A stretch of 64,000 nucleotides of DNA, taken from the NCBI GenBank assembly GCA_028715055.1, contig JAQTLE010000001.1, forward strand, positions 248,001 through 312,000, written 5' to 3'. This stretch comes from Sulfurovaceae bacterium. Lineage in GTDB: Bacteria > Campylobacterota > Campylobacteria > Campylobacterales > Sulfurovaceae. The notes below the pieces were generated by a model. It worked only from the letters and a program-made list of their open reading frames with translations, had not been told where the DNA came from and did no database searches. This document shows, in pieces, positions 20,465-63,206 of the stretch (position 1 is its first letter; each line of letters starts with the position of its first letter). The translations under genes were made by a program, and so were the position numbers.

Positions 20465-21103
20465 TTATAGTCTTATGACTCCAAAATATATTAAAACCCC
20501 GAGCAATATTAGCAATAATGCGGAAAATAACTTTATCTCTTTTTTAAATCTCGCAAGTTCAGTGACTATCGTTGAAGTGATCTTAAAAATAAAAAAATAA
20601 AAAAACAAAAACGGAATAATAACTACACCCAAGCCAAAAGAAACACCATACAGAAGAGATGTTAAAAATGAGCCACTTAAAGCACTGGTAGCTATCAATG
20701 TGCCAACAGGCAAACAAAAACTAAAAGAGCTAAAAAAACCAATCCCAAAAAATCCAAATTTTGACGAAGTTGTGCAACTCGCAGAACAAGTTTTATTTGA
20801 AAAAAATGCACGATACAAAGAATAAAGTCCAACTATGAATATTGTAATTCCGCCTATTTTGGTAAAGACCAGATCATCTTGAATATATTTCTTGACTACA
20901 TCCGCACCAAAAAATGCAACCGACGAGATAGTGGTGTAAGCCAAAATTTTTCCACTGAAATACTGGATCAAAATATAAATACCATCTTGTTTATTGGACG
21001 CATTACCAAGCAAAATAGGTGTCATGATAGGCATACAGCTAATCGCACAAGCAGTAGCTCCCAGCTGTAGACCCATGACAAAAATAGCAAAAAATACGAG
21101 CAT
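20465..21103 (-). CDS. CcdA/TauE-SafE-like six-helix membrane protein
   Basis: A 212-residue polytopic membrane protein with about six helices. It has the N-terminal 'GLQLGATACAISCMPIMTPILLG', a central 'CLPVGTLIATSALSGS' repeat-like segment and a glycine/proline pattern typical of the DsbD/CcdA - UreH-type sulfite exporter superfamily. The cysteines in the first helix and the second half-repeat fit a CcdA-like thiol or electron carrier across the membrane. It overlaps the activase gene by one base and closes the operon. A role in passing reductant or metal in the same pathway is an inference. Confidence 0.6.
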   Translation of the reverse strand: MLVFFAIFVMGLQLGATACAISCMPIMTPILLGNASNKQDGIYILIQYFSGKILAYTTISSVAFFGADVVKKYIQDDLVFTKIGGITIFIVGLYSLYRAFFSNKTCSASCTTSSKFGFFGIGFFSSFSFCLPVGTLIATSALSGSFLTSLLYGVSFGLGVVIIPFLFFYFFIFKITSTIVTELARFKKEIKLFSALLLILLGVLIYFGVIRL

Positions 21104-21906
21104 CAGTTATTTTCGTAGTTGTATGAATCAACACCCATAATAGCTGCTCCAAATGAAGTTGTAATTTGTGGATGCTTTGGTACAAATATTCTTTGTCCTA
21201 TTTCATTTTCTATAGCATTAACGAGGCCGTCATTGAGTGCTGGACCGCCATCAAAATAGATGCCTTCTTTGATGCCGACCCTTTTGACTAGTTTTACTAT
21301 TCGTTTCGCTATGGAGTAGTGTACCCCGCAAACAATGTCTTCAATGCCATGATCATTGCCCAAAAGTCCAATTATCTCTGATTCTGCAAAAACGGCGCAA
21401 GTGCTGCTAACAGATAGTGGAGTGCCCTTGGATCTGAAATGGTATTCTCCGAGCATATTTACGTCCATCTCGAGTTTAAGTGCAACAACATCCAAAAACT
21501 TTCCAGTTCCTGCAGCACATCTATCATTCATGGCGAAATTAACTACATTTCCCTCGTTGTCGAGCGAGATTGCTTTGCTGTCTTGACCGCCGATGTTTAT
21601 AATGGTCTTGATCTCTCCAAACTCACTTGCCGCAGCTCTAGCTCCTATAGCATTTGCTGTTATTTCACTTATGTTTTCATCGGCTTCTTTGTATAGTTTT
21701 CTTCCATAGCCGGTGGCTACTATATAGACTATATCATTATTGTTTAACCCTAGTTCGCTTATAAGTGCATCCAGTGTTTCTTGGGCATACTTATAAAACA
21801 TACTTCCACTGGCACTTATTTTAAAACCCAATAGATTTTTATTTTCATCTACAATAGATATTTTAATAGCGGTTGAGCCGATATCTATCCCTGCAAAATA
21901 TTTCAT
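21103..21906 (-). CDS. ATP-dependent activator of a 2-hydroxyacyl-CoA dehydratase-type protein (BadF/HgdC family)
   Basis: A 267-residue ASKHA-fold ATPase that uses ATP to push an electron to a very low potential. The nucleotide loops are 'GIDIGSTAIKISIVD' at residues 6-20 and 'NIGGQDSKAI'. The two cysteines that in the homodimer hold a shared [4Fe-4S] cluster lie in 'DRCAAGTGKF' and 'STCAVFAESE'. It is transcribed with the dehydratase-family gene (4-base overlap), its obvious partner. By comparison with the double-cubane protein reductase described in Carboxydothermus, it may energise that protein rather than a true acyl-CoA dehydratase. Confidence 0.88.
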   Translation of the reverse strand: MKYFAGIDIGSTAIKISIVDENKNLLGFKISASGSMFYKYAQETLDALISELGLNNNDIVYIVATGYGRKLYKEADENISEITANAIGARAAASEFGEIKTIINIGGQDSKAISLDNEGNVVNFAMNDRCAAGTGKFLDVVALKLEMDVNMLGEYHFRSKGTPLSVSSTCAVFAESEIIGLLGNDHGIEDIVCGVHYSIAKRIVKLVKRVGIKEGIYFDGGPALNDGLVNAIENEIGQRIFVPKHPQITTSFGAAIMGVDSYNYENN

Positions 21907-23177
21907 TTTTTATTTCTCCGTCTGGTTTTCAATGACTCTATAAATGCTTCTACTCTCGTACTTAGCTGACCGCCTTGTGACGGGCTATAATCACTCTCCA
22001 AATAAAGGATCGGAATTCCTTCTTTCTCCATAGCTTCAAGCACACTTCTTTGTTCCATTTCATAGACAGTACATCCGGCAAATGCTTGATATATTACCCC
22101 ATCAGCTTTGTATTCTCTTGCTAGTTGTACAACTCTTCTGATGCGGTCCTCATTTTTGGTAAAAATAGGGCAGGTGCATGCTTTGAGATATTTATCTGAT
22201 ATAGAATCCATCATATCGTATATATTCCACTCATCTACAGCTACCATATCATTGAACATTCTATTGGAACTGCATGTTTCATCTGCTACTATGATGCCAT
22301 CAGATTCTTCTATGATCTGTGGGATCTTATAGTTTGGAAATATCGGCGGTGAACCGGTGTAAATTATCCTTGGACTGGCTTTGCCTGTTACGGTTATCTT
22401 TTCTTTTGCTCTTATCTCAAGTTCGCTTAGGAGTTTTTCGGTAGCTTCTATCCAATTGTCGATTTTGTCAAAGAAGAAAGCATTTGTTACCAAAAACACA
22501 TCCATCCCCAAAATAGGAATGATATCATTTTTTCTGAATTCTGATAATTTATGATAAAGTGATTGAGCGTAGCCTATCTTCTTTATTGCATTTCTTAGGT
22601 TGGTTTTTGTAAGTTTTTTACCTTGAAATTTGGACAGTTCTACGGCAAATTGTTTGACGCTTCTTCTCCAGTATTCACGACTTGCTTCACTCTCTTTCGT
22701 CCTTGGAAAATCTACATCGATAAGTTTGTATCCAAAACTTTCTATGGTAGTTCCTGCTTTTGTTTTTTGGTCACAAGTAGTAGGGGAAAAGACAATATCA
22801 GGTTTATCGGTGAAATTTCCAGAAGCAAAATGTCCAACAGTTGCTTTGATAAGCGGACAAGCTTTTTGAGGCATGAGGTCACTTCCTATCTCGTCATCTG
22901 TATAAAACCCATTACAAAGGCGTATCGGCACACCATCGAGTGCATAAATGATCTCGGAAGGTATCTGAATGCACATAGTTCCTATTTTTGTTTTATCATC
23001 ATGCAAAGATTCATGTTTGCAATGGACTCTTTCAAATAGATCATAGAAATACTCCATGCTTTCAATCGGTTCCTTGAAGTCTTCTCTGAGAGTATTTAAA
23101 AGCTTAATAGCTTCCATGGCTTTGTGTCTATTTTGTTTCTCTTTTGGTGATTCTATATTGTGATTTGTGTTACTCAT
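21903..23177 (-). CDS. 2-hydroxyacyl-CoA dehydratase D-component / double-cubane cluster protein-like
   Basis: A 424-residue HgdB/DCCP-family protein with two similar domains. Candidate cluster cysteines are spread through the chain in 'RLCNGFY', 'KACPLIK', 'TTCDQK', 'DETCSSN', 'KACTCPIF' and 'FAGCTVYE'. A single subunit with one activase and no CoA-transferase or second dehydratase subunit is the arrangement known for double-cubane [8Fe-9S] proteins, which reduce small molecules with ATP. The substrate is unknown. It overlaps the NapH-like gene by 8 bases, linking it to a membrane polyferredoxin and a TonB-dependent receptor. Confidence 0.8.
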   Translation of the reverse strand: MSNTNHNIESPKEKQNRHKAMEAIKLLNTLREDFKEPIESMEYFYDLFERVHCKHESLHDDKTKIGTMCIQIPSEIIYALDGVPIRLCNGFYTDDEIGSDLMPQKACPLIKATVGHFASGNFTDKPDIVFSPTTCDQKTKAGTTIESFGYKLIDVDFPRTKESEASREYWRRSVKQFAVELSKFQGKKLTKTNLRNAIKKIGYAQSLYHKLSEFRKNDIIPILGMDVFLVTNAFFFDKIDNWIEATEKLLSELEIRAKEKITVTGKASPRIIYTGSPPIFPNYKIPQIIEESDGIIVADETCSSNRMFNDMVAVDEWNIYDMMDSISDKYLKACTCPIFTKNEDRIRRVVQLAREYKADGVIYQAFAGCTVYEMEQRSVLEAMEKEGIPILYLESDYSPSQGGQLSTRVEAFIESLKTRRRNKK

Positions 23178-24168
23178 GCAATTCCTTTTGTTGACTCATA
23201 GCCATTCTTAGTATAAATCCCTCTTTGGTGGATTCAAAAATTGTAATTCCGATAAAATTTGCTTCCAGACATCCATCTTCCGGGCAAGCAGCGATACATT
23301 TTAAGCATAGTATGCAATCCTCGGTAACTAAATTTTTACTTTTAACATCATCTGCGATCTCCAAAATATCCATATCGCAAGCTCTGTAGCAATCACCGCA
23401 TCTAGTACATTTAGCACCATCTTTGTAGAGCTTGAGAAGTGCAGGCTTGGAAAATATATATTGCAATGCAGCCATTGGACAAAAATAGCAAAAAAACCTT
23501 TTTTTGATAAATGAACCGACTAAAAATAGACCTACAATTATCATACCCAAAGTCGTCATGACCAAATCAGTCTTAGATGAAAAATCAATATAGAATTGAT
23601 TGAAATTACCAGTAAAAGCTGGAATTAACATTCTGCCAGGGCAAATATCGCAAAATGGCATGGATAGGCCATTTGGAAGTTTTGGGAGTCCTAGGATGGA
23701 ATTGCTTATCATGACAGGGATTATTAGCAGAAGTATCAAAAGTATGTATTTAATGATTTTGATGTTGCCCCTGGAAGCCCATGAGTACTCAGAAAATCTT
23801 ATTTTTAACTTTTCTCTTAATGCTGTAAGCCAATCTTGCATAGTACCAAGTGGACACACAAAACCACACCAGCTTTTATTTAAGACCCAAAACCATACCA
23901 TAAACATAATTAGTGAGATGAGAAAAGTGTACCCGGCAAACCCAATAAATGTTTCAAATGGTTGCTTTAAATTGTGTTGCAGCTCTCCCACATAACATTT
24001 TCCGCCAGTACCTTCCCCATTAAATACACATGCAAATGTAGGTAGCTTGTCCCCTAGATCAAGGCTTACGTAACCACCATAGACTATCAATGCAAATGCT
24101 ATGATCTGAAACCAAAAACGGAATCGCGTAAGATTTATATTGTTGATTTTTCGTTTTAAGTCAAACAT
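23170..24168 (-). CDS. NapH/NosR-like membrane polyferredoxin (set 1)
   Basis: An inner-membrane protein of about 332 residues with four to five helices and iron-sulfur motifs. Two cytoplasmic 'CxxxCP' motifs are present (WCGFVCPLG, FFCYFCPMA) plus 'FCDICPG', and the C-terminus has a 2[4Fe-4S] ferredoxin domain 'CTRCGDCYRACDMDI' and 'CILCLKCIAACPEDG'. This is the NapH/NosR/RnfE-type architecture that moves quinol electrons. The start is the ATG at 24168 behind GGGGGA; the GTG at 24180 is less likely. It is paralogous to 27650-28615. The neighbourhood suggests a role in electron supply for metal or substrate reduction rather than nitrate reduction, as no nap gene is nearby. Confidence 0.85.
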   Translation of the reverse strand: MFDLKRKINNINLTRFRFWFQIIAFALIVYGGYVSLDLGDKLPTFACVFNGEGTGGKCYVGELQHNLKQPFETFIGFAGYTFLISLIMFMVWFWVLNKSWCGFVCPLGTMQDWLTALREKLKIRFSEYSWASRGNIKIIKYILLILLLIIPVMISNSILGLPKLPNGLSMPFCDICPGRMLIPAFTGNFNQFYIDFSSKTDLVMTTLGMIIVGLFLVGSFIKKRFFCYFCPMAALQYIFSKPALLKLYKDGAKCTRCGDCYRACDMDILEIADDVKSKNLVTEDCILCLKCIAACPEDGCLEANFIGITIFESTKEGFILRMAMSQQKELHE

Positions 24169-24198
24169 CTTTTCCCCCACGTAAAAATATTTAGTATC

Positions 24199-25155
24199 TT
24201 ATTTTTCATCAAACCAAATCTCCTTGGGAGTTTTTCGTTTTTTTCTTCGGTTATAATACAGTCCTAAAGAAAAGACCAACATGACACCTATAGCAGTTGC
24301 AAATCCCAAAAATTTTGATTCGTATTCAAGGGGAGATTGGCCAAATGATAGAGGCATGGTCATTGTATATTCTATGGTATGATAGGCTTGCCCATTGTAG
24401 ACACCCGATTCATTTACCCTATATACTGCTTCAACGATCATTTTTTCAGAATATTTTTTCTCTTTTTCTGTTTTAGCATATGTGTTTCTTGGTATTTCGA
24501 ATGATATAACTCCATCATCATATGGTTTGATCACATTGACCCATCCTGTCTCCATAGTAACTTTCAGAGGTATGTTTTTTTGAAGTTTTCCTTGGTAATA
24601 AATCTTGAAAGGGGCAATGTCGCCTGAATATAAACAGCAATTGATGTGGTGTTTTCTGATCGGTTTTTCCATAATAATTTCAAATGGTAATTGTGTTAAA
24701 GGTTCTCTTGCATACTTAGAATCAATCGTTTTACCTCTCACTTCTTTTAGTAAAGATTTGGTTATATTTCCTTCTTTGTTGTACACTCTGAGCGAAGAAA
24801 GTGTTACGTGGAGTATCTCGTTTTGTACAGATTTTTGTTCAAAAAACAGGTAATAATTTCCCTTGTATGCAGGAATAAAAGAGATTTTCCCCCCACTAAC
24901 ATTTTGTTCAGTAATTTGATTGTCCATATCTCTTATATATAATTTTGCATTTTTTAGGTCATAGACAGTTTCACTATTTTCCAGATCGCCATTTTTGATT
25001 ATGAACTCTTTATGCTTTGGTTCTTTGGTTTCTGTGGTCTTGCAACATGATTTTGCTTTTAACTCTTCAATCCACATAGAACCGTCTGCAAAAGCCGGAA
25101 CGCTTATGCAAAATGTACTAATGGCTAAAATGGTTTTTAAAATGATCGTTTTCAA
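24199..25155 (-). CDS. Secreted, membrane-anchored periplasmic protein (DUF4198-like, set 1)
   Basis: A 318-residue protein with a signal peptide (about residues 1-23, ending PAFA), a periplasmic beta-rich domain and a C-terminal transmembrane helix (about 283-302) followed by a short basic tail ending 'KEIWFDEK'. The segment 'FKIYYQGKLQKNIPLKVTMETGW...DDGVISFEIPR' resembles DUF4198/NikK-type metal-linked periplasmic proteins. CC pairs near residues 37-38 and 173-174 could bind metal. Translation probably starts at TTG 25155, since GGAG sits 7 bases upstream and no ATG fits. The same layout and tail recur in the protein at 28605-29690. Confidence 0.6.
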   Translation of the reverse strand: MKTIILKTILAISTFCISVPAFADGSMWIEELKAKSCCKTTETKEPKHKEFIIKNGDLENSETVYDLKNAKLYIRDMDNQITEQNVSGGKISFIPAYKGNYYLFFEQKSVQNEILHVTLSSLRVYNKEGNITKSLLKEVRGKTIDSKYAREPLTQLPFEIIMEKPIRKHHINCCLYSGDIAPFKIYYQGKLQKNIPLKVTMETGWVNVIKPYDDGVISFEIPRNTYAKTEKEKKYSEKMIVEAVYRVNESGVYNGQAYHTIEYTMTMPLSFGQSPLEYESKFLGFATAIGVMLVFSLGLYYNRRKKRKTPKEIWFDEK

Positions 25156-25178: not shown

Positions 25179-27365
25179 TTAGAATTTAAAAGTCAATTCA
25201 CCATAAAACGTTCGTCCAGGGGTCAGTGATGACTGATAATATTCTCTATCAAAAATATTATTAACCGCCAAAGAAACAGCTACCCATTTTTTGAGTTGAT
25301 ATTGCAATTTAGCATTTGCGGTAAAATAGGATTCATATCCTCCATACGTTGATTTGTATATATCGGAATTGTCGTCTTTTGTCGTTATGTCATCCACATA
25401 ACTTCCCATTATTGACCCACTCCAATCACCTTGTTTACCATTAATTCCGATATTAAATTGTCTTTCTGGAACATATGTTACTCGTTTGCCTACAATAGAT
25501 GGATTATTTTTATTTTCAGTGATTTCTGTATGATTGAACGTAACATTTGCAAAAGCATTGAGTCCGTCATAAAGCTCTTGCTGAACCTCTAGCTCTATTC
25601 CTTTTATTTCAGCTTTTCCGGCATTTCTTTTTTCATTCAATGTTGTGCTGATATCTGTCGTATACATCAGATCTTTGAGATAATTTTCATAATATGTTGT
25701 TTTGAAATGAGTATTAGTATCGAAAATATGTTCATACCCGATCTCCCATGATGTTAACGTTTCTGGTTTTAGATCTGGACTTCCTTGGTATAATTTATTT
25801 CCTGCATAAAAAGACGAATATAGATCACTTAATGAAGGAGCCCTGAATGCTTGTCCGGCAGACGTTCTAAAAGTTGTATGTTCATCGGGCGTATATACAA
25901 GAGATACTTTTGGGCTAAATTGAGAATCTTCTCTTTCTGGATATATAGTAGTTGTTGCTTTTGTGTAATCGATATAATTTCCTGAAGTTTTCCAAGTATC
26001 ATACCTACCGCCTACATAAGCAACCAATTGATTTGTAATATCTATTGTGTCTTGTATATATATTGCTTTTGTTGTGCTATTGCCATTTGATTCACTATTG
26101 AGCGTTGTTTTTGCTTCGTCATCTGTCCAGTTTGGCAAAACATTTACTTTTTTAGCAAGTTCATTTCTGTTTGCATCTGTACCGATTACAATATAATGTG
26201 TATCTCCGAACGAAAAATTAAATTGCAATGATCCATATGCAGTATTATTTGGTATGTCAGTATATGTTCCGGGACCTCCTGTTGAGGTCGCCCCTGTTGC
26301 TTGAGAAATATACCAATATCCATATTTTGAATAGCTGGTATTAAATTTAACATTAACATCATCTAAAATTTTGGTTTCATAGCTTAATGTATATCTATCT
26401 GTTTTTTCTCCGGTAGGACCAAATAAAAAATCTTTTTCAGAAAGTGATGTTTTTGATGTCGGATCTAATTGTACTGTTCCGGAAAAAATAGGATCCCCGG
26501 AAGTATTGGTCAAATATGTATTGAAGCTATCAAAGTCTGTTGCATCATTGTGATGAGAATAGCCAAATACAGCCTTTGTATAATCATTAAAATCATAAAA
26601 TAATTTAATGCCTTCATTATTTTCATGCCATGGTTTTTTGCCTTTATCGCCAACTACATAAACCGTTTTACCGGTAGGATCGATTGTTTTTTGAGCTCCG
26701 AATACAGGTATTCCTCCTGTGCCCGCAGTCGGTGTCTTAACAACAAGTTCGTTGATATATCCATCGCTTGATTTGTCATTAAAATTTAAAGAAATTCCGA
26801 GTTTATCTGTTATTTTGTCTTTATACAAGATATCTAAATTCTTAAAATCATTGCTTCCATATCCTGTTTTTATGATAACTTCTCTTTTGATCGGTTCTTT
26901 TGTTATTATATTTATTACTCCGCTCATCGCATTTCCACCATATAGCGAGGAAAATGGACCTTTCACGACTTCTATCTTTTCTATATCATCAACAGGAATA
27001 TTTGACCAGTTTACCCCGGAAGAAAATGCATTATTTAGTGATATTCCATCAATCAAAACAGCTGTGCGATAGTACATCGGAATTCCGCGCAACGTTACAG
27101 AGTTACTCCAACTATTTGGTGTATGGTCTCCGTCCGCTCTGACATATACACCAGCCACTTCTTTAATTGCTTCATCAGCTCTTAGAACTGATTTTTCTTC
27201 GATCTTTTCTTTGTTGACAACACTTATGCTTGCTGGAGATTTCAAAGTGCTTTGTTCTGTTTTTGTGGCCGTAACTGACATATCCCCTAAATCAATATTT
27301 TCAGCCATGGCATTAGTCATACTTATAGCAAATATAGCTATAGTTGACAACGCAATTGTTTTCAT
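25179..27365 (-). CDS. TonB-dependent outer-membrane receptor (set 1)
   Basis: A 728-residue receptor with a signal peptide (MKTIALSTIAIFAISMTNAMA), a TonB box-like 'DMSVTATK', a plug domain (about residues 40-150, with 'VLIDGISLNNAF' and 'KVEVVKGPFSSLYGGNAMSGVINI') and a 22-strand barrel ending in the aromatic 'GELTFKF'. 'GRTFYGELTF' at the end is typical. The start is set at ATG 27365, preceded by AAGGGG. An upstream in-frame extension to 27440 would lie in the conserved leader and is rejected. First gene of an operon with the DUF4198-like, NapH-like, double-cubane, activase and CcdA-like genes. Substrate unknown. Confidence 0.92.
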   Translation of the reverse strand: MKTIALSTIAIFAISMTNAMAENIDLGDMSVTATKTEQSTLKSPASISVVNKEKIEEKSVLRADEAIKEVAGVYVRADGDHTPNSWSNSVTLRGIPMYYRTAVLIDGISLNNAFSSGVNWSNIPVDDIEKIEVVKGPFSSLYGGNAMSGVINIITKEPIKREVIIKTGYGSNDFKNLDILYKDKITDKLGISLNFNDKSSDGYINELVVKTPTAGTGGIPVFGAQKTIDPTGKTVYVVGDKGKKPWHENNEGIKLFYDFNDYTKAVFGYSHHNDATDFDSFNTYLTNTSGDPIFSGTVQLDPTSKTSLSEKDFLFGPTGEKTDRYTLSYETKILDDVNVKFNTSYSKYGYWYISQATGATSTGGPGTYTDIPNNTAYGSLQFNFSFGDTHYIVIGTDANRNELAKKVNVLPNWTDDEAKTTLNSESNGNSTTKAIYIQDTIDITNQLVAYVGGRYDTWKTSGNYIDYTKATTTIYPEREDSQFSPKVSLVYTPDEHTTFRTSAGQAFRAPSLSDLYSSFYAGNKLYQGSPDLKPETLTSWEIGYEHIFDTNTHFKTTYYENYLKDLMYTTDISTTLNEKRNAGKAEIKGIELEVQQELYDGLNAFANVTFNHTEITENKNNPSIVGKRVTYVPERQFNIGINGKQGDWSGSIMGSYVDDITTKDDNSDIYKSTYGGYESYFTANAKLQYQLKKWVAVSLAVNNIFDREYYQSSLTPGRTFYGELTFKF

Positions 27366-27531
27366 ATTTTCCCCTTGTATTGTGTATAATGATAAAAAAA
27401 GAGACTTGGCTAGAAGAATTGTGATATTCTTTTGTTGCATTTTTGTGTGTAATGCTTCTTATTCATATATAAATTTATATTTTCTTAACATTATTTATGA
27501 ATAAGTCCCCTCATCAAACGCATAAGTATAA
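27366..27531 (-). promoter_or_regulatory. Conserved 5' leader upstream of receptor 1
   Basis: On the minus strand a TATACT -10 box is the reverse complement of AGTATA in 27525-27530. From there a leader of roughly 155 bases runs to the ATG. Blocks shared with the region upstream of receptor 2 include TTATTTATGAA, AGGGGACUU (27503-27511), a GCAUU..AAUGC hairpin around 27435-27455, AAGUCUCUUUUUUU (27393-27407) and the ribosome site AAGGGG (27371-27376). AGGGGACUU and AAGGGG can each pair with the AAGUCUCUU segment, so the leader may switch between two folds. Confidence 0.5.
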
Positions 27532-27540
27532 ACGAGAAAT

Positions 27541-27575
27541 GTTAATTCAGTGTTAAACCTTAACACTGAATTAAC
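27541..27575. promoter_or_regulatory. Perfect 16-bp inverted-repeat operator (site 1)
   Basis: GTTAATTCAGTGTTAA and its exact inverse are separated by ACC. The site is about 10 bases upstream of the likely -10 box of receptor 1, so a bound regulator would touch the -35 region. The same left arm and a near-identical right arm occur at 32108-32142 before receptor 2. The regulator is not identified. Confidence 0.75.
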
Positions 27576-27588
27576 ATTTTGGTCTTGT

Positions 27589-27649: not shown

Positions 27650-28615
27650 TTATTGCTCCAGGTTCATTCTTTTTTCAAACCCTTGTCTTGTAGAGCTAAA
27701 AGCTTTTATATTCAAGATGTCAAAATGCAGTGCATCATCTTCCGGACACGCAGCTACGCATTTCAGGCACAAGATACAATCATCTCTTAGTATATTGTTG
27801 CTTGTGACATCATCGGCTATGTCTTTGATCTGCATATCGCATACTGCGTAACAATCACCGCATCTAGTGCATCTGTTGCCGTCTTTTCTGAATTTTACAA
27901 TGGATGTATTTGCAAATATATAATGCAATGCGCTCATTGGGCAAAAGAAACAAAAAAATCTTTTTTTGACAAATGAACCAACGAAAAATAAAGATGCAAA
28001 AGATACACCAAGAGCAGTCAGTATCATATTTGTTTTTGAAGAGAAATCAATTCTCCATTGCGAGAAATCACCTGAAAACATAGGACTTATTACTCTCGCT
28101 GGGCACATTTGGCAAAACGGTGCTGACCAGTTATTTGAAAGTGCCCCTGTACCTATCAAAATAGGGAATAGTAAAGCTATGATCAAAAATAGATATTTGA
28201 TTTTTGAAAGTTCTTCAAATTGTCTTTGCGTGTAAGTACTAAATCTAACGCCCATTTTTCTTCGCAAACTCGTTATCCAATCTTGCAGTGTGCCAAATGG
28301 ACACATGTACCCGCACCATGCTTTATTTAAGATCATAAACCAAGCTATAAATGTGACCAACCCTATCAGGATAGATATAAATGCAGGAGAAAAAAGGACT
28401 TTTGCTGGCATTGAAAGCTGATGCTGCAATGAAATTAGGTAACAAGTAGCACCGGCATGTCCATTGTAAGGGCATGCAAATACAGGAAAGCTAGAGCCAA
28501 GATTTATAGCCCAGTATCCTCCATAAACAAACAGTATAAAGCTAATGAGTTGTATCCAAAATCTTACTTTTCTCAAATCACCGTTATTTATGAAGTTTTT
28601 GATTTTATTCTTCAT
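27650..28615 (-). CDS. NapH/NosR-like membrane polyferredoxin (set 2)
   Basis: A 321-residue paralogue of 23170-24168 with the same order of motifs: 'WCGYMCPFGTLQDW', 'FCQMCPA', 'FFCFFCPMSALHYIF', then 'CTRCGDCYAVCDMQI' and 'CILCLKCVAACPEDD'. Membrane helices alternate with these motifs. Its start ATG at 28615 overlaps the end of the anchored periplasmic protein by 11 bases. Unlike set 1 it is not followed by a dehydratase-family protein. The likely role is moving quinol electrons across or to the periplasmic face for uptake or reduction of the receptor's cargo; that is an inference from the repeated gene order. Confidence 0.85.
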   Translation of the reverse strand: MKNKIKNFINNGDLRKVRFWIQLISFILFVYGGYWAINLGSSFPVFACPYNGHAGATCYLISLQHQLSMPAKVLFSPAFISILIGLVTFIAWFMILNKAWCGYMCPFGTLQDWITSLRRKMGVRFSTYTQRQFEELSKIKYLFLIIALLFPILIGTGALSNNWSAPFCQMCPARVISPMFSGDFSQWRIDFSSKTNMILTALGVSFASLFFVGSFVKKRFFCFFCPMSALHYIFANTSIVKFRKDGNRCTRCGDCYAVCDMQIKDIADDVTSNNILRDDCILCLKCVAACPEDDALHFDILNIKAFSSTRQGFEKRMNLEQ

Positions 28616-29690
28616 ATCTTATCTCTCTAAACGGCTTAGTTCTATTTCTTCTGTATATGTAGATAATTATTCCAGATAGCGTAAATACAAAAATACCTAT
28701 TATTAAGCCAAAACCATAAGACAGATAATCGATGCCGTTTGGATAATAAGACAAAGGATAAGTCAGTATATAGTTTATAGATTTATACTTTTGATCACCC
28801 ATGGTACCGTTATTTTCTTCATTGTATTGCAATGTTATAAGCATATCCTGTTTGAAACGTTTATCAAACTTATCCCAAAAAGGAAAATAATCTCTAATAA
28901 TAGTAAAGCTGGCTATCCCATTCTCGTCTGTCTTGATATGTTTGCTCCACCCGCTCTCCAAATCTATTATGAGATCCGCATTTTTTAACGGTTTCCCATC
29001 AAGCATAGCTTTGAATTTTAGAGTTTCCCCCATGCTGATAGTATAAAGAAAACTATTTTCATTTTTATCTTTTAATCTTATGAGGTCTATTTTTGTTTTG
29101 TCGGTTTTCAGCTCTTTTTTTACATTATCGTTATAGATATCTTTGCTTCCATGTTTGCCGTTAAGATATTCCAGCTTGGCTACTCTATAAAAAAGAGTAT
29201 TACCATCTATGGTTTCATTTTTGGCTATCAAGTTATAATAACCGCTTTTTGGCACTTCAAAACTATATGTCGCAACACCCATTTTGTTATCAGCTTTGAC
29301 ATTTTTTTGTTTTTGCGCAGTGTCAAAAACAAAAGTTTCCAGATCCAAATTTGATACAAGATTATTATCCCCAAAAACAAGCCATACTTTTTTAGACGGA
29401 ATTTTTGATTTTTCGTAGCCATCCATTTGCATACGCATTCCGCCTTTATCCCCGCCTCTTTTTGCAGGATCTGACAATGTAAAATATATCGGAGTTTCCG
29501 GATCCATTTTTTTGGCATTTGAAACTTTTTCGCATTTTTGACATTGCTGTTCTTGTTTGTTTGTTTCTTTTGCCGCATAGCCTTTGTGTACATATCTTTT
29601 GTAGGTTTGGACACCTGCAAAAAAAAGTATCAAAATTGCTAGAGAAAATAAAAATATTTTCTTTTTATTTCTCTTTTTTGATGTTTTCAT
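28605..29690 (-). CDS. Membrane-anchored periplasmic protein (DUF4198-like, set 2)
   Basis: A 361-residue protein with an N-terminal hydrophobic helix (residues 11-27), a CxxC pair in 'EQQCQKCEKV' (about residues 49-52), a periplasmic beta domain with 'LKFKAMLDGKPLKNADLIIDLESGW...DENGIASFTI' and a C-terminal helix (about 325-346) followed by 'KPFREIRYEE'. The same overall layout and tail occur at 24199-25155, so the two are paralogues. It may be a periplasmic metal-binding or docking subunit for the NapH-like protein; function unproved. It is 10 bases downstream of receptor 2. Confidence 0.6.
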   Translation of the reverse strand: MKTSKKRNKKKIFLFSLAILILFFAGVQTYKRYVHKGYAAKETNKQEQQCQKCEKVSNAKKMDPETPIYFTLSDPAKRGGDKGGMRMQMDGYEKSKIPSKKVWLVFGDNNLVSNLDLETFVFDTAQKQKNVKADNKMGVATYSFEVPKSGYYNLIAKNETIDGNTLFYRVAKLEYLNGKHGSKDIYNDNVKKELKTDKTKIDLIRLKDKNENSFLYTISMGETLKFKAMLDGKPLKNADLIIDLESGWSKHIKTDENGIASFTIIRDYFPFWDKFDKRFKQDMLITLQYNEENNGTMGDQKYKSINYILTYPLSYYPNGIDYLSYGFGLIIGIFVFTLSGIIIYIYRRNRTKPFREIRYEE

Positions 29691-29700
29691 ATGTTATCCT

Positions 29701-31932
29701 CTAAAATTTAACTTGCATACCTATATTGATCGTTCGACCCTCGTTCACTGTTATGGAAATATCTTCGTCGGTGTAAAGGCCATCTCCATTTCCATCACCT
29801 GAAACTCTAGCTGTGTTGTAGTAATATTTGTCAAACAAATTGTCTACCCTTGCATAAAAATCTGTATTAAAACCATACAATTTGGTTTTATAATCCAGAT
29901 TAAGATTTACAACCCCATGTCCAGGTATTTTGAAACGGTTCAATTCATCAGCATAGTAGCTTGATGTCACATCGATTTCAGGTGATATCGTGAAATTTGC
30001 AGTCGGTTTATAATCCAAATATGCATTGAAGTGGTGTTCAGGTACTCTTGGAACATGATTTCCCTTTAGGTTGTAATGTACTGTTGAATAGTTACCGTAC
30101 TGGTTTCCAAGAGATAGGTTAAAGTTATCATATTTTGTAAATTCGGCATCTATATATGTATAGGCCAGATGTGAACTTAGCTGATCTGATATCTGGCTTT
30201 GCAAGGATGCCTCTATACCACTATTGCGCATACCGCCGATATTTTCATATCGTCCTATACTAGTTTTATCTTTCAAATCAACTTTTGAATATTGTCCCAA
30301 AGAAGACATTATATAATCATCTCTATCCATCACGAAAAATCCAAGTTCATAGCTGTGTTTCATGTCAAAAGCATCACTTTTGCCTCGCACTCCTATATCA
30401 AAACTTTTTGTAACCTCCGGTTTTAGATCAGGGTTATTCTCTGTTTTGCCATCCATGTTTATGCTGCCTGCAAAAAGCTGCTGCACAGAAGGAGCCCTAA
30501 ATCCGGTTGATACAGCCGTGTAAAAAGCAGTATTGTCATTTAATTGATAATTCGCACCCGCTCTATAAGATGTTTGATTGAAGCTTTTTTCCACCTGCAG
30601 CATTGGTTGCTTGTTGCTGTAATCATAGTTGATATAGTCATAGCGTAGATTCGATGTCGCACTCCATTTGTCATTGAATTTATATTTGTATTCACCATAA
30701 AGCCCGCATACGCTTTCATCCATATTGTCGTCTGTTGTAACTGTTCCTTTGCTATAGTTATACCATCCGCTCGGTCTTTTTGGTTTAGACCAATCAGTTG
30801 CATAAGAGACGTTGTTTTTATAGTTATTCGCTCTTAAATCCACCCCGATCATATAAGCATTGTTGTCTCCGATATTTCCTCTAAACTCACTTTTTATGCC
30901 TCTTTGTACCTGTTTATAATCATTGAGATTTGGTTTTATTCTCGGATCGGTATTTGGTGTATGTGTGTCGGTATTAGGATCCCATAAATAATCTACATAG
31001 CCTGAATAGAAAATAGTATGGTCGTTGTATTGATAAAGACTGACCAAAAGGTTTTTGCCTTTTTCAAATTCTTTGGAATATGTTGTATAAAGTTTCATAA
31101 GGTTAACATCAAACATTGCAGCATAATCTCTGTCAGTCCAGCCTTTTGACGGGTCGTAAATACTTCTAGGATTGTCATAGGCTTCTTTAACACCCTGGAC
31201 CGTTCCGTGGGAATTTTTGTTGCGCTTAGAATACTCAAAACCTGCGGTTATATCGCTAGTATCGTCTATATAATATTGCGCTTTACCATTGAGATAATCG
31301 GTACGATAATCCCCGTCTTCATAGTATCCGTCTTTTTTTCTTTGGCTTGCTTGAATAAAGGCATTGTATTTTTCTTTTGATACACCGTATTTGGCTAGAT
31401 ATTTTTCATATCCGTAAGTTCCGTTTTCTACTTCTGCTTTGGCACCTGCATTTTTGGCGCCTTTTTTGGTAGTAATGACAACTGCACCGGATAATGCATC
31501 ATCCCCAAAAAGATAACTTGCTCCGCCTTTTATGACCTTTATGCTTTCAATATTATCTAAGTCTATATTAACGCTTCCGGTTCTCTCAAATACAGGAACA
31601 CCGTCTATCACGACAGCAACACCTGGTTTTTCACCCATATAAACCTGATTTTCTATTCCCCTGATATGAATTTTTAGAGAATCGCCGTCTGTTAATTCAG
31701 TAGTAATTCCTGTAACCGATTGCAAAGTTCTTTGGATGTTCTCTGCTTTTTTTGCATCTATTGTTTCGCCTTTGATCGTTGTGGTTGAAGAAACTTCATT
31801 TCTTTTGGATTCAAATTTATCATCGATCGTTGATGAATCGACATGAATGACCCCCATGTCTTCTTGTGCATGAATAGCAGTTATCGTTGTGATTAAAGCT
31901 GAAGCAATAATGCTAAGCTTGATTGTTTTCAT
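29701..31932 (-). CDS. TonB-dependent outer-membrane receptor (set 2)
   Basis: A 743-residue receptor with signal peptide (ending 'TAIHA'), plug domain (about residues 45-155 with 'GVAVVIDGVPVFER' and 'KVIKGGASYLFGDDALSGAVVI') and a barrel ending 'GRTINIGMQVKF'. The ribosome site AAGGGGGA immediately precedes the ATG. It is only distantly similar to receptor 1, so the two probably import different ligands although their promoters are alike. It is divergent from exbB-exbD-tonB across a 264-base gap that holds the shared operator. Confidence 0.93.
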   Translation of the reverse strand: MKTIKLSIIASALITTITAIHAQEDMGVIHVDSSTIDDKFESKRNEVSSTTTIKGETIDAKKAENIQRTLQSVTGITTELTDGDSLKIHIRGIENQVYMGEKPGVAVVIDGVPVFERTGSVNIDLDNIESIKVIKGGASYLFGDDALSGAVVITTKKGAKNAGAKAEVENGTYGYEKYLAKYGVSKEKYNAFIQASQRKKDGYYEDGDYRTDYLNGKAQYYIDDTSDITAGFEYSKRNKNSHGTVQGVKEAYDNPRSIYDPSKGWTDRDYAAMFDVNLMKLYTTYSKEFEKGKNLLVSLYQYNDHTIFYSGYVDYLWDPNTDTHTPNTDPRIKPNLNDYKQVQRGIKSEFRGNIGDNNAYMIGVDLRANNYKNNVSYATDWSKPKRPSGWYNYSKGTVTTDDNMDESVCGLYGEYKYKFNDKWSATSNLRYDYINYDYSNKQPMLQVEKSFNQTSYRAGANYQLNDNTAFYTAVSTGFRAPSVQQLFAGSINMDGKTENNPDLKPEVTKSFDIGVRGKSDAFDMKHSYELGFFVMDRDDYIMSSLGQYSKVDLKDKTSIGRYENIGGMRNSGIEASLQSQISDQLSSHLAYTYIDAEFTKYDNFNLSLGNQYGNYSTVHYNLKGNHVPRVPEHHFNAYLDYKPTANFTISPEIDVTSSYYADELNRFKIPGHGVVNLNLDYKTKLYGFNTDFYARVDNLFDKYYYNTARVSGDGNGDGLYTDEDISITVNEGRTINIGMQVKF

Positions 31933-32098: not shown

Positions 32099-32107
32099 AA
32101 GCAAATT

Positions 32108-32142
32108 GTTAATTCAGTGTTAAAACTTAACACAAAATTAAC
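32108..32142. promoter_or_regulatory. Inverted-repeat operator (site 2)
   Basis: The left arm GTTAATTCAGTGTTAA is identical to site 1; the spacer is AAC; the right arm TTAACACAAAATTAAC differs from perfect symmetry at two positions. It lies between the divergent receptor 2 and exbB genes, 55 bases from the exbB ATG, so one regulator could control both. Confidence 0.7.
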
Positions 32143-32196
32143 ATTTTTATCTTATTATTTCAATAATAAATATTTACAAATGGGGTTATAAATAAA

Positions 32197-32649
32197 ATGG
32201 ACATGGAACAATTAAGAAATTTGGTCGATTACGGAATAATAGGTTTGCTTGGAATAATGAGCTTTTTAGTTGTATTCTTTTGGATAGAAAGACTGCTTTT
32301 TTATAAAAAACTTGATATAAAAAATTATTCTACCAAAGAAGCTTTAGAGCTTGATGTTTCTCAAAATATATCTATCATATCCAGTTTTGGTGCAAACGCT
32401 CCATACATCGGTTTGCTTGGAACTGTTTTGGGTATCATAGTTACATTTTATACATTGGGCCAAAGCGGTAATATGGATGTAAAAACGATCATGACATCTC
32501 TTGCGTTGGCCCTGAAGGCCACTGCAATGGGTCTTGCTGTAGCGATTCCGGCAATATTTTTTTATAACCATATAGCAAGAAAGATAGAAGTTATTATGAC
32601 AAAATGGGAGATATATCAAAAGGAAAACAATGCAAATCAAAAAGTTTGA
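32197..32649 (+). CDS. exbB: TonB-system energiser ExbB
   Basis: A 150-residue inner-membrane proton-channel subunit (MotA/TolQ/ExbB family) with three helices: about residues 14-32, 63-90 ('GANAPYIGLLGTVLGIIVTFYTL') and 108-128 ('LKATAMGLAVAIPAIFFYN'). This is the short ExbB form common in Campylobacterota. It overlaps exbD by 20 bases. Its promoter probably includes operator site 2. Confidence 0.92.
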   Translation: MDMEQLRNLVDYGIIGLLGIMSFLVVFFWIERLLFYKKLDIKNYSTKEALELDVSQNISIISSFGANAPYIGLLGTVLGIIVTFYTLGQSGNMDVKTIMTSLALALKATAMGLAVAIPAIFFYNHIARKIEVIMTKWEIYQKENNANQKV

Positions 32650-33010
32650 TTCTATAAATGTAGTTCCTTTTATAGATATTATGCTCGTACTTCTTGTCAT
32701 AGTTTTGACAACGGCATCTTTTATCCAAATGGGAGTTATAAAAGTTGATCTTCCGTCATCAAGTGCTGCAATCGAAGAAAAACCGAAAAAAGAAATTAAA
32801 GTTTCTATAGACAAAGACGGCAGGATTTATATAGACAAGATTGAAATAAAAAGAGAAGAGTTCGAAGCAAAGATTTTGACAAATAGCAAAGATACTCCGA
32901 TCTATCTATTTTGTGATAAAAATGCTAAGTTTGACAATTTTGTTTTTTTACTTGATATCTTAAAAAATAACGGTTATGAAAAATTGGGGATAGTTACGAC
33001 AAATGAATAG
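32630..33010 (+). CDS. exbD: TonB-system subunit ExbD
   Basis: A 126-residue ExbD/TolR protein with one N-terminal helix containing the essential Asp in 'VVPFIDIMLVLLVI' (D16 region) and a periplasmic domain 'IKVSIDKDGRIYIDK'. AAAAGGAAAACA precedes the ATG inside the exbB end. It overlaps tonB by 8 bases. Confidence 0.93.
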   Translation: MQIKKFDSINVVPFIDIMLVLLVIVLTTASFIQMGVIKVDLPSSSAAIEEKPKKEIKVSIDKDGRIYIDKIEIKREEFEAKILTNSKDTPIYLFCDKNAKFDNFVFLLDILKNNGYEKLGIVTTNE

Positions 33011-33638
33011 ATATACGCACTCTTTTTTGATTTCATCTTTTTTGTACAGCATTTTATTTTTTGGCTTAATGTATATGATGAGTAAGGCTCCTAAGGCATT
33101 TAGCGAAAGAGTCATAAAAATAGCTATGGTAGTCCCGCAAGAAGAATCGATTCAGCAACAAGCAGTCAATGAACCTGTGAAAGAAAAGGTCGAAGAGCAA
33201 AAAGAAGATAAGCCGGTACAAAAAGTAGAAAAAACAAAACCGATTCAAACTAATTCAAAGGCTATAATAAAACAACCGGATATATCTAAACAAGCCGAAC
33301 AGCATGACGTTAAAAAACAACAGGTCGCACAAAAAACATATGTAAGTTCTCAAGTTGAAAAAAATGAATTTATATCAGAAATAAAAAGCGAAATTAGACG
33401 AAACAAATATTATCCGGAAGCAGCAAGAAGAAGAGGGCAGGAAGGAACGGTAGCAATTTCATTTCATGTTAACACCGACGGCAGTGCAAGCAATGTTATT
33501 TGCAATGGCGAGCATTCAGTACTAAATGGCGCAGCAAAAGATGCAGTAAACAAGGCTTTCCCTGTCAAAATAACCCAAAATATTGCTAGTGCGTTACCAA
33601 TGGATCTTTCATTGGTTTTGGATTTCAAACTTGATTAA
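33003..33638 (+). CDS. tonB: TonB energy-transducing protein
   Basis: A 211-residue protein with one N-terminal helix (about residues 9-26), a Lys/Glu/Gln-rich periplasmic linker (residues 45-115) in place of the classical Pro-rich one, and a C-terminal TonB domain with 'YYPEAARRRGQEGTVAISFHV' and 'LPMDLSLVLDFKLD'. The last gene of exbB-exbD-tonB. It presumably powers both adjacent receptors. Confidence 0.92.
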   Translation: MNRYTHSFLISSFLYSILFFGLMYMMSKAPKAFSERVIKIAMVVPQEESIQQQAVNEPVKEKVEEQKEDKPVQKVEKTKPIQTNSKAIIKQPDISKQAEQHDVKKQQVAQKTYVSSQVEKNEFISEIKSEIRRNKYYPEAARRRGQEGTVAISFHVNTDGSASNVICNGEHSVLNGAAKDAVNKAFPVKITQNIASALPMDLSLVLDFKLD

Positions 33639-44373: not shown

Positions 44374-45150
44374 ATGATTGGTCGCATTTCGGAAAATATC
44401 GTTGAGTTTAATGTAATGAAAAAATATCCGAAAGAGATATTTTACAAGGGTAATGTTGAATTACTAAAAAAGCCAAAAATATCAATAGTCGGTAGTCGCA
44501 ATCCAAATCAATATGCACAGATGATGACACATGAAATTGCCTACAAACTTTCTTGTGCCGGCATCTGCATAGTTAGTGGCGGAGCTGTTGGAATCGATAC
44601 CATATCTCACAAAGCTGCCGGATTATATAATACTATTATGGTCGCAGGTACAGGGCTAGACAAAAGGTATCCCTCTATAAATAGACATTTGATACAAGAT
44701 ATAGAAAATTATGGTCTAGTACTTAGTCAATTTCAACTTGGAACACAATTTAATAAATATAATTTTCCCATAAGAAATGAGCTGGTTGTAGCGTTGGGAA
44801 ATATATTGATAGTTACTTATGCAGATATAGACTCTGGAACTATGAGAAGCGTGGAATATGCTATTAAAATGAAAAAGGATATATATGTATTGCCTCATCG
44901 AATTGGAGAGAGCGAGGGTACAAATGGATTGTTAAAACATGGACTTGCAAAAGCAATCTATGATATTGATGAATTTATAGCTAGTATAGGTGTAAATAAT
45001 TTATGTATTGATCCAGGAGACGAGTTTTTAAAGTATTGCAAAACAAATCCAACATTTGATGATGCTGTAGTAAAATATGGAGAGAAGGTATTTGAGTATG
45101 AATTGGACGGAAAGATAAAGGTAAATAATGGTCAAATTTATAGAATCTAA
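44374..45150 (+). CDS. dprA: DprA carried by the transposon (full-length second copy)
   Basis: A complete 258-residue DprA: 'ISIVGSRNPNQYAQM' and 'CIVSGGAVGIDTISHKAAG' (Rossmann fold, ssDNA-binding residues), 'FPIRNELVVALGN', 'DSGTMRSVEYA' and 'VLPHRIGESEGTNGLL', then the C-terminal extension 'FLKYCKTNPTFDDAVVKYGEKVFEYEL'. Each block has a counterpart in the interrupted host gene; by eye about half the residues agree, so it is a diverged homologue, not a recent duplication. It can replace the host protein. It follows the TnsE-like gene by 2 bases and points the same way as the broken dprA. Alternatively it serves the transposon directly, for example in handling single-stranded DNA. Confidence 0.93.
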   Translation: MIGRISENIVEFNVMKKYPKEIFYKGNVELLKKPKISIVGSRNPNQYAQMMTHEIAYKLSCAGICIVSGGAVGIDTISHKAAGLYNTIMVAGTGLDKRYPSINRHLIQDIENYGLVLSQFQLGTQFNKYNFPIRNELVVALGNILIVTYADIDSGTMRSVEYAIKMKKDIYVLPHRIGESEGTNGLLKHGLAKAIYDIDEFIASIGVNNLCIDPGDEFLKYCKTNPTFDDAVVKYGEKVFEYELDGKIKVNNGQIYRI

Positions 45151-45332: not shown

Positions 45333-47081
45333 TTGTTGAGAGTTGGTTTGTTGTTAGTATTATTGCTATTTGGATCCATTGAAGCGTTTGCACTATCTTC
45401 CCAAGAGATCGAAGCTATTCAATTACAGATAGCCAAAGAAAGAGAAAAAGCCATCCAAAATACTCAACCGGCAGCTCCAACGGTAAATCTCCAAGAAACA
45501 AACATTACTACCCCCAAAAAACTTACTATTATTGACAACGAAACCCCTTGTTTTAACATAAAAAATGTAGAACTTGTAGGCGAAGATGCCAGTATGTTTA
45601 AATCAAGTCTATCATCCGCACTGAAAAGTATCGGATTTCGATCAGGACAATGTATCGGTGCAAATAGTATCAACGCCATTCTTAGTGCTATTGGTAATGA
45701 GATCATACGCAATGGATTTGTAACTACTAGAGTTGTTGCCAATCCCCAGGACATAAAGAGCGGCAAACTTAAACTTACTGTAATGCCAGGAAAAGTAAAT
45801 GATATCAGATTTGAACAAAATCCACAAGTTGATACAAATATAGAGAGAGCAAATAGTTTCAATGCTATGCCTGTAAAGAAAGGTGATGTATTAAACATAA
45901 GAGATATAGAGCAGGGTTTGGAAAACTTCAAACGAGTGCCAACGGTCGAGGCTGATATGCAGATAGTTCCTTCCAAGGAGCAAGGGTCTTCAGATGTTGT
46001 CATCAAATGGATTCAAAGAGAAGTACCTTTTCGTCTTAATTTATCTATAGATGATGCAGGTACATCCAGCACGGGTAAATATCAAGGTGGAGTTACAATA
46101 GCAGCAGACAATCCATTTAGACTAAATGATATATTTTACTTTAGTTGTGGCAGTGATGTAGCAGGATATGGCAAAGCAACCGTATTGACTCCAAGCGGCT
46201 CTATTGATTCCATGAGAGGCAATTCAAAAAACTTTAGTTTGCATTATTCTATTCCATATGGATATTGGCTGCTTAGCTTTAATGAAAATAGATATAACTA
46301 TCATCAGGCAGTTGCAGGGGCAAACCAGGTATACGATTACAGTGGTCATAGTAACAATAAGGACATCTCTTTATCGTATCTTTTTCAAAGAAACTCTACT
46401 GGGAAAAGTTCTATATATTTAAAGGGCTGGGAGAGGTTTTCTGACAGCTTTATAGAAGATGCGGAGATAACTGTCCAACGCAGAAAAACTGCAGGATATG
46501 AAATAGGACTGACACATCAAGAACAAACAGGTAATGCTTTGTGGAATTTTGGATCGTCCTTTAGAAAAGGTACAGGCGCAATGGGTTCACTTCCGGCTCC
46601 TGAAGAAGCATTCAATGAAGGTACTAGCAGAATGGAGATCATAACAGCAGATGCGTCTGTGTTTACACCAGTCTACTCTTCGCCATTTATATATGAAGGT
46701 TCCATCCATGTACAATATAACAATACTCCTCTCGTCCCTCAAGACAGGCTTTCAATAGGAGGAAGATATACAGTAAGAGGATTTGATGGGGATTATACTC
46801 TGATGGCAGACAGGGGGGCTATATGGAGAAATGCTCTTGCCTATTCATATCTGGCCAATCATCAAATATACGGCGCGATTGACGGTGGATATGTAGATGG
46901 TCAGAGTGCAAAATTGTTAGTCGGTAAAACGCTGGCCGGAGCTGCTATCGGACTAAGAGGTCAGTTTGCATTTGGCGGCAATTTGTCTTACGATATATTC
47001 GCAGGAACCCCCATATACAAACCGGATAATTTTGAGACCAAAGATATAACATTTGGCTTTAGCCTAAATTATACACTATAA
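45333..47081 (+). CDS. Two-partner secretion outer-membrane transporter (TpsB/CdiB-like)
   Basis: A 582-residue Omp85-type transporter of the ShlB/FhaC/CdiB group that exports the adjacent exoprotein. Signal peptide about residues 1-20, an N-terminal plug helix region, a POTRA domain ('CFNIKNVELVGEDASMF...CIGANSINAILSAIGNEIIRNGFVTTRVV', residues 72-150), a second POTRA and a 16-strand barrel with the 'VRGFDGDYTLMADRGAIWRN' loop-6 motif. No ATG fits; TTG 45333 or 45336 behind AAGGGA is used. The 182 bases before it are AT-rich with a possible GATAAAAT -10 box. It lies 8 bases before the exoprotein gene. Confidence 0.9.
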   Translation: MLRVGLLLVLLLFGSIEAFALSSQEIEAIQLQIAKEREKAIQNTQPAAPTVNLQETNITTPKKLTIIDNETPCFNIKNVELVGEDASMFKSSLSSALKSIGFRSGQCIGANSINAILSAIGNEIIRNGFVTTRVVANPQDIKSGKLKLTVMPGKVNDIRFEQNPQVDTNIERANSFNAMPVKKGDVLNIRDIEQGLENFKRVPTVEADMQIVPSKEQGSSDVVIKWIQREVPFRLNLSIDDAGTSSTGKYQGGVTIAADNPFRLNDIFYFSCGSDVAGYGKATVLTPSGSIDSMRGNSKNFSLHYSIPYGYWLLSFNENRYNYHQAVAGANQVYDYSGHSNNKDISLSYLFQRNSTGKSSIYLKGWERFSDSFIEDAEITVQRRKTAGYEIGLTHQEQTGNALWNFGSSFRKGTGAMGSLPAPEEAFNEGTSRMEIITADASVFTPVYSSPFIYEGSIHVQYNNTPLVPQDRLSIGGRYTVRGFDGDYTLMADRGAIWRNALAYSYLANHQIYGAIDGGYVDGQSAKLLVGKTLAGAAIGLRGQFAFGGNLSYDIFAGTPIYKPDNFETKDITFGFSLNYTL

Positions 47082-47089
47082 GGAGTATT

Positions 47090-54629: not shown

Positions 54630-54631
54630 GC

Positions 54632-55684: not shown

Positions 55685-55685
55685 A

Positions 55686-56258
55686 TCAGTCAATACCTTT
55701 GTTTAATAGATACTGAATCCATCCTAAAGAAGGGATTATTAAATCGCCACTTGGCACACCAATGGCAGCACTCAACTCTTCAAATTTACTACTTGATAAA
55801 TCTTGTTTTAACGTTTGATTTCCAATTGCATTTGAAACACTTGGGTCACTTATTAGAGCTTTTATTGTTTCTTGATAAGGCATAAGTATACTGGTTGTAC
55901 ATGCTGCATCTAAATAGGACTCTCGTTTTTGAAAAATAGTTAAGTTTTTAAATTTATTGAGTTCATCAAGACCTCTTGCGCTTATTTTGAAATAATCAGT
56001 TCCACTTTTTTCAAGCCACCCGTTTTGGATATGTCTCTGTAAAGCTAGTGCTAGATCATCAGCATATGGGTAACCATTAAAAATTATATACTGATAATTC
56101 CAGTCGGCCGGTGTTTTACCATCATATAAAAATAAAATAGAGGCAAAATATGAAAATAAATGTATTTCTTCTAATTGAAATGCATCTAAAAAATCATCTA
56201 ATTTGTGTGCGATTGATAAACTATCGTAAAACGCTTCAGGTTTAACTTCTGACTGCAT
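55686..56258 (-). CDS. Small middle-component-like protein, probable winged helix
   Basis: A 190-residue soluble protein I do not recognise by name. The central part 'DLALALQRHIQNGWLEKSGTDYFKISARGLDELNKFKNL' looks like a winged-helix (helix, turn, wing, helix). Its position between an SMC-like ATPase and an effector is that of the 'middle component' of ABC-three-component conflict systems. It overlaps the ATPase gene by 17 bases. A role as adaptor between ATPase and nuclease is an inference. Confidence 0.5.
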   Translation of the reverse strand: MQSEVKPEAFYDSLSIAHKLDDFLDAFQLEEIHLFSYFASILFLYDGKTPADWNYQYIIFNGYPYADDLALALQRHIQNGWLEKSGTDYFKISARGLDELNKFKNLTIFQKRESYLDAACTTSILMPYQETIKALISDPSVSNAIGNQTLKQDLSSSKFEELSAAIGVPSGDLIIPSLGWIQYLLNKGID

Positions 56259-63094: not shown

Positions 63095-63201
63095 TTTAAT
63101 TAACCTTTTTGTTGTAAATTGTTAAGTTTGTTATTGTAGAAAAAAGATCTATTTTTAGCATTTTGTGCAATCTCCAGTTAAGTTTGTTCTTGTAGATGAC
63201 A
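63069..63201. repeat. Right transposon end with three TnsB-type binding sites
   Basis: GTTAAGTTTGTTCTTGTA (63177-63194), GTTAAGTTTGTTATTGTA (63121-63138) and GTTAAGTTTATTGTTGTG (63069-63086) are inverse copies of the 18-base left-end element, spaced 52-56 bases apart. The element ends ATGACA at 63201. The third site lies in the first codons of tnsA. Confidence 0.85.
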
Positions 63202-63206
63202 ATACT
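63202..63206. repeat. Target site duplication, right copy
   Basis: ATACT directly after the terminal ATGACA, matching 42658-42662. Confidence 0.93.

Follow-up and report, generated by a model that had tools for sequence, protein, structure and literature searches.

A double-cubane cluster protein and its ATP-dependent activator in a TonB receptor operon of Sulfurovaceae, with a possible role in reductive metal uptake

The window analyzed here, 64,000 nucleotides of contig JAQTLE010000001.1 (positions 248,001 to 312,000 of the forward strand) from the Sulfurovaceae assembly GCA_028715055.1, contains an operon that encodes a double-cubane cluster protein (DCCP) and its ATP-dependent activator together with membrane polyferredoxins, periplasmic proteins and TonB-dependent receptors. 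The host is a sulfur-oxidising-type bacterium with a 1.76 Mb genome, 99.97% complete. Five minus-strand genes, closely spaced or overlapping, fill positions 20465–25155, where a first-pass annotation, made from the letters alone, had already placed them. They encode a DsbD_2-type membrane protein (20465–21103; PF13386, 54.9 bits), which had been labeled CcdA/TauE-like; a 267-residue activator of the BcrAD_BadFG/CoA_E_activ type (21103–21906; BcrAD_BadFG 178 bits, TIGR00241 218.5 bits); the DCCP itself, of 424 residues (21903–23177; PF06050 (HGD-D) 315.9 bits, NF040772 334.6 bits); NapHa, a four-helix polyferredoxin with Fer4_5/Fer4_10 domains (23170–24180); and PERa, a periplasmic protein of the DUF4198 fold, recognized from an AlphaFold2 model, with one C-terminal membrane helix (24199–25155). 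The PF13386, BcrAD_BadFG and PF06050 scores lie well above their respective cut-offs. The DsbD_2 gene overlaps that of the activator by one base, the activator gene overlaps the DCCP gene by four, and the DCCP gene overlaps that of NapHa by eight.

This span proved too narrow. The whole unit reaches position 33638 and comprises two receptor–PER–NapH modules and a divergent ExbB–ExbD–TonB set; the second module, the latter genes and an operator had been overlooked. The first module is completed by TonB-dependent receptor a (25179–27440, minus strand, start probably near 27365; PF00593/PF07715), whose nearest general model, the heme/hemoglobin receptor TIGR01785, is matched below its cut-off. 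Upstream of it on the same strand lies the second module (27650–31932), consisting of NapHb (27650–28615), a polyferredoxin with the same cysteine set as NapHa and 50% identical to it; PERb (28605–29690), a second DUF4198-like, membrane-anchored protein (PF10670, 29.7 bits, slightly below the cut-off); and receptor b (29701–31932; PF00593/PF07715). The plus strand carries the genes of ExbB (32197–32649; PF01618, 106 bits), of a 126-residue ExbD (32630–33010), an open frame right after ExbB that resembles the ExbD of relatives, and of TonB (33003–33638; PF03544, 41 bits), which together occupy 32197–33638. An operator-like palindrome, TGTTAATTCAGTGTTAA-N3-TTAACACTGAATTAACA, is located upstream of receptor a (27540–27576), and a second copy lies between receptor b and the divergent exbB (32107–32143).

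The assignment of the window protein as DCCP-type is well supported by its ligands and by phylogeny, and an [8Fe-9S] cluster is predicted from its sequence. Six cluster cysteines (C69, C107, C135, C302, C336 and C369) align with those of the Carboxydothermus hydrogenoformans protein (Ch-DCCP) and are at least 95% conserved among 46 sequences, whereas HadC retains three of the six in the alignment. Among the NCBIfam models, NF040772 gives 334.6 bits, compared with 81.9 bits for the BzdN and 81.5 bits for the HadC model. The curated NF040772 cut-off of 350 bits is narrowly missed, as it is by the locus L033 (338 bits); a gammaproteobacterial homolog of the same clade (L044) clears it with 360 bits. 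Because the placement rests on the tree and the ligands and the cut-off was missed, the protein is named DCCP-type and not a member of the NF040772 equivalog. Its closest PDB matches are 7yyl and 6eno. In the tree, of which only the main split was used since several reference branches are very long, the window DCCP belongs to its own clade of Campylobacterota and Gammaproteobacteria on the Ch-DCCP/YjiM side (split 98/91), apart from BzdN, MbdN and HadC. Across the whole genome, PF06050 and the activator family PF01869 each match one protein, and a search for a HadA-type CoA-transferase (CoA_transf_3, PF02515) returned no match. The earlier description of a DCCP-like protein rather than a dehydratase, accompanied by neither a CoA-transferase nor a second dehydratase subunit, is thus borne out by cysteines, profile, PDB match and genome content, and the tree does not place the protein among true acyl-CoA dehydratases.

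In having a single six-cysteine HGD-D protein and one BadF-type ATPase, the pair resembles the DCCP/DCCPR of C. hydrogenoformans (6ENO, 7YYL) and YjiM–YjiL of Escherichia coli. The E. coli pair, however, has no linked receptor, PER or NapH, and, compared with Ch-DCCP/DCCPR, the window DCCP forms part of a separate clade and its activator is closer to the HAD activator: the best PDB match is HAD activator 4eht (216 bits), and DCCP's own activator, 7yyl_E, reaches 134 bits. C130 and C170 of the activator are conserved, as expected for a bridging [4Fe-4S] cluster. Class I benzoyl-CoA reductase (BzdNOPQ) and 2-hydroxyacyl-CoA dehydratase (HadBC/HadI) share the homologous fold and the ATP-driven activator, and BzdN retains a double cubane; both systems are heterodimers acting on CoA substrates, whereas the operon encodes one subunit and no CoA chemistry. 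The DsbD_2 protein has four conserved cysteines (C19, C23, C106 and C130).

NapHa combines two cytosolic ferredoxin motifs with CxxxCP and CxxCP motifs, features that it shares, along with the membrane helices, with the NapH, NosR and CcoG polyferredoxins. It differs from these in four additional cysteines (C51, C62, C177 and C180), which are at least 95% conserved among 50 sequences and have no counterparts in aligned E. coli NapH. From hydropathy and charge, the ferredoxin domain is predicted to be cytosolic and the four cysteines to fall on periplasmic loops; by binding an additional cluster or metal site there, they might complete a wire through the membrane. The NapH family cut-off is missed by far (75.5 vs 213 bits), and no NapG partner is present in the operon. 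The related polyferredoxin CcoG acts as a cupric reductase (PMC8267372).

PERa (24199–25155) has no Pfam match by sequence. Its AlphaFold2 model (mean predicted local distance difference test, pLDDT, 78) matches the structures of Zcp (9mhj, Z 18.3) and a Ni-bound DUF4198 protein (9gcb, Z 17.1), with the next match at Z 6.9; structures of Zcp exist with Zn, Co and Cu. Identity between PERa and PERb is 31% in the C-terminal 160 residues. H169, C173 and C174 are conserved among PERa proteins, and PERb contains a Met-rich GMRMQMDG segment in place of the HSHGG of its relatives; such a Met/His loop (HSHGG, SHGGM) is frequent in PER proteins but not universal. Conserved metal ligands were considered for PER and rejected, as none is family-wide. 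The PER proteins share the fold and the link to TonB receptors with known DUF4198 proteins (Zcp, IsDUF4198, NikK-like), from which they differ by the C-terminal membrane helix and by fusions to polyferredoxin or NosL domains. A long PER of the Sulfurimonas type is fused at its N-terminus to a second polyferredoxin, and a NosL copper-chaperone domain was detected in the long PER of L029; a structure model of the long PER, with a pLDDT of 60, was not used. Still longer forms of about 910–918 residues (L029:1903-4659, L030, L034, L035 and L048) have an unusual architecture that unites polyferredoxin and DUF4198-like domain in a single membrane protein. In Alteromonas, DUF4198 genes adjoin Fe-responsive TonB receptors (PMC7190382), and in Caulobacter they accompany a PepSY protein that has been implicated in periplasmic ferric reduction (PMC11870441). 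These PepSY_TM/DUF2271/DUF4198 loci, an established type of arrangement for iron, also have an inner-membrane reductase/permease and, in Alteromonas, the TonB receptor; their membrane protein is of the PepSY_TM type and they lack an ATP-driven electron supply. One of the DCCP loci has a PepSY_TM protein beside its receptor.

The gene set is kept across relatives. One scan gave 49 DCCP loci, mainly in metagenome-assembled genomes (MAGs) of the Sulfurovum, Sulfurimonas, Sulfuricurvum and Arcobacter type; five are gammaproteobacterial or Sedimenticola-like, with 53–55% identity, and some MAG names may reflect misbinned contigs (e.g., L016 “Petrimonas” and L041 “Polarisedimenticolaceae”). The core of PER, NapH, DCCP and activator, often with DsbD_2, is found across Campylobacterota and in Gammaproteobacteria. 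Among the 48 loci whose upstream sequence exceeds 5 kb, a few of which derive from one genome or from near-identical records, DCCP shares its operon with PER and NapH 46 times, with the activator 43 times, with a TonB receptor 41 times, with DsbD_2 39 times, with ExbB/D 19 times and with an RND permease 12 times. Of 298 genomes of the phylum, 16 have strong PER matches, and precisely these 16 have a DCCP of at least 59% identity (Fisher p 8e-27, uncorrected for phylogeny). Other DCCPs of the phylum, about 33% identical, occur without PER, and G392 alone carries both kinds. Many genomes of family f3/genus g13 (including G150, G170, G199, G229, G234, G270 and G323) have a single in-frame stop, mostly TAG, in the 33%-identity gene, which may be a sign of decay or just the natural end of the gene falling inside the aligned frame.

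Within the family, DCCP is patchy (11/120 genomes), and in Sulfurovum mangrovi the operon resides on a 395 kb plasmid (NZ_CP087125.1, L117), a distribution that fits horizontal spread. A search for PERa on plasmids gave no match. Besides the operon, the S. mangrovi plasmid encodes another TonB receptor and an RND permease.

The modules themselves are exchanged between loci. In L004 and L005, receptor b, PERb and NapHb immediately precede DCCP; L006 has only the a-type module; in the window, L003 and L037, both modules stand before one DCCP. Across these six loci, DCCP is 88–98% identical. Near-identical DCCPs behind differing modules are more in keeping with an electron source of general use than with a reductase dedicated to one substrate. 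DCCP and activator may thus form a common supply, with receptor, PER and NapH conferring specificity. This reading, drawn from module exchange, speaks to gene arrangement rather than to protein contact. Some genomes (G357, G388) have two DCCPs each, the a-type DCCP being without an activator of its own.

A common upstream element accompanies most of the Campylobacterota operons. Each palindrome arm repeats TGTTAA directly, at a period of 11 bases. Over 54 regions, including those from Gammaproteobacteria, the best match to TGTTAA-N5-TGTTAA has a mean of 1.24 mismatches, compared with 3.22 in shuffled sequence; the element is missing from all five gammaproteobacterial loci. The period and half-site resemble those of the HP1043 site, TTTAAG-N5-TTTAAG (PMC5253667). 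In the window genome, the inverted pair is restricted to the two promoters of this cluster, and six further single sites are all intergenic; one of them precedes ccoNOQP, and another lies 47 bases upstream of a TonB receptor gene next to nifHDK. The palindrome at 27540–27576 could form a terminator-like hairpin; an operator is preferred, since the second copy sits between divergent genes. This last receptor, encoded on contig C3 of the same genome directly downstream of nifHDK (L114:4371-6537), matches the TonB-copper model over its full length with 145 bits, below the cut-off of 472, and may import metal for nitrogenase.

The simplest reading of these parts is the periplasmic reduction of a very stable metal complex. 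The TonB receptor, powered by its own ExbB–ExbD–TonB, would import a tightly bound metal complex, most likely of iron or copper, into the periplasm, where the membrane-anchored PER would hold it. In the cytosol, the activator would use ATP to drive electrons from a donor of low potential, assumed to be ferredoxin, into the double-cubane cluster of DCCP, which would pass them to the ferredoxin domain of NapH. The NapH clusters and periplasmic cysteines would then carry the electrons across the membrane to the PER-bound complex, from which the metal would be released, and one DCCP/activator pair would serve several receptor–PER–NapH modules. Copper is favored by the NosL domain and the Met/His loops, iron by the precedents. 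The sequences establish the parts, their linkage and co-occurrence and the exchange of modules; we infer the direction of electron flow, the NapH–DCCP contact, the metal-complex cargo, the identity of the metal and the role of DsbD_2. Such ATP-driven reductive uptake is proposed tentatively, as quite possible though short of probable. More doubtful is the stronger claim that the exported electrons, at very low potential and carried by a dedicated polyferredoxin, reduce metal complexes beyond the reach of weaker reductants, which would amount to a new acquisition mechanism and the first role for a DCCP.

Several points weigh against reductive uptake. Iron and copper complexes are usually reduced without such a strong reductant, and we know of no published electron transfer from a DCCP to a membrane protein. 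The topology of NapH is a hydropathy prediction, and in Gammaproteobacteria the receptor does not always adjoin the core. Among 18 PER sequences, no His, Cys or Met, and no metal ligand, is invariant; a histidine at the likely mature N-terminus is also absent, unlike in the DUF4198 family, whose metal site uses it (PMC12537917). The Fur box search showed no enrichment, with 7.13 mismatches against 7.11 in shuffled sequence for an E. coli-type consensus, from which that of Campylobacterota may differ.

The main rival is that the receptor imports a small molecule which reaches the cytosol and is reduced there by DCCP itself, NapH and PER serving uptake or regulation. In vitro reduction of acetylene, azide and hydrazine is documented for a known DCCP (PMC11971306), and the receptors and TonB system are linked to the operon here. 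Yet no inner-membrane importer is conserved, except possibly DsbD_2, nor is any other metabolic enzyme; DCCP stays nearly constant while the receptor, PER and NapH modules vary; and NapH and PER, the most constant partners, are left unexplained. This alternative is unlikely. Of the first reading, the coupling to an outer-membrane receptor stands. Less likely is its undescribed pathway, if taken as ordinary metabolic reduction of an imported substrate: the operon keeps no catabolic enzyme, and DCCP is partnered by a polyferredoxin in the membrane and a protein with a metal-binding type of fold.

Electrons might also flow in reverse, NapH drawing them from quinol or the periplasm and feeding activator and DCCP for an unrelated cytosolic reduction, with the receptor supplying iron. 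NapH-type proteins are, by NCBIfam naming, quinol dehydrogenase components, and the activator requires a donor that the operon does not encode. Such activators, however, normally use ferredoxin, electrons from quinol, a weak donor, would have to be lifted a long way by ATP, and the PER–polyferredoxin fusions suggest an electron sink outside; the reverse direction appears quite improbable.

Still less credible is that the system provides a cuproenzyme with copper, the client being NosZ or cbb3 oxidase. This reading could draw on the NosL domain in one long PER, on two full-length NosZ genes in all four DCCP-bearing genomes of the related genus g3 (G064, G083, G105 and G115) and on the element before ccoNOQP, but the window genome and its DCCP-bearing congeners lack NosZ, and cbb3 oxidase is far more widespread than the operon. 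NosZ was accordingly rejected as client, being missing from the window's genus though DCCP is present. Nitrogenase was likewise rejected: nifH occurs in 5/5 DCCP-bearing congeners and is absent from the DCCP-bearing genomes of two other genera. That the window protein is an ordinary 2-hydroxyacyl-CoA dehydratase or benzoyl-CoA reductase is almost certainly wrong, for although the Pfam and activator families are shared, the single HGD-D gene, the missing CoA_transf_3, the six cysteines against three in HadC and the tree all argue against it.

The physiological role of DCCPs has been stated to be unknown (PMC11971306). Literature searches for a DCCP–PER–NapH operon found no description in searchable papers, and the association of DCCP with receptor, PER and NapH appears undescribed there. 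With fixed partners, a receptor and an operator assigned to a distinct DCCP clade, its role becomes testable. If reductive uptake is true, the operon would provide the first consistent physiological setting for the DCCP family; if electrons leave the cytosol via NapH, low-potential chemistry driven by ATP would reach into the periplasm, something for which the searchable literature likewise has no description.

Elsewhere in the window, a 582-residue TpsB-like transporter and a 1926-residue filamentous haemagglutinin-like protein, recognized by eye (45333–52870), are likely a two-partner secretion pair. Tn7-like TnsA, TnsB, TniB and TniQ genes (58471–63094) are found beside genes for a DNA methylase, an SMC-like ATPase and two proteins of no assigned kind (53364–58224), which are possibly defence cargo. 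A dprA gene (44374–45150) and a truncated copy (63196–63714) flank the Tn7-like region, suggesting insertion at dprA.

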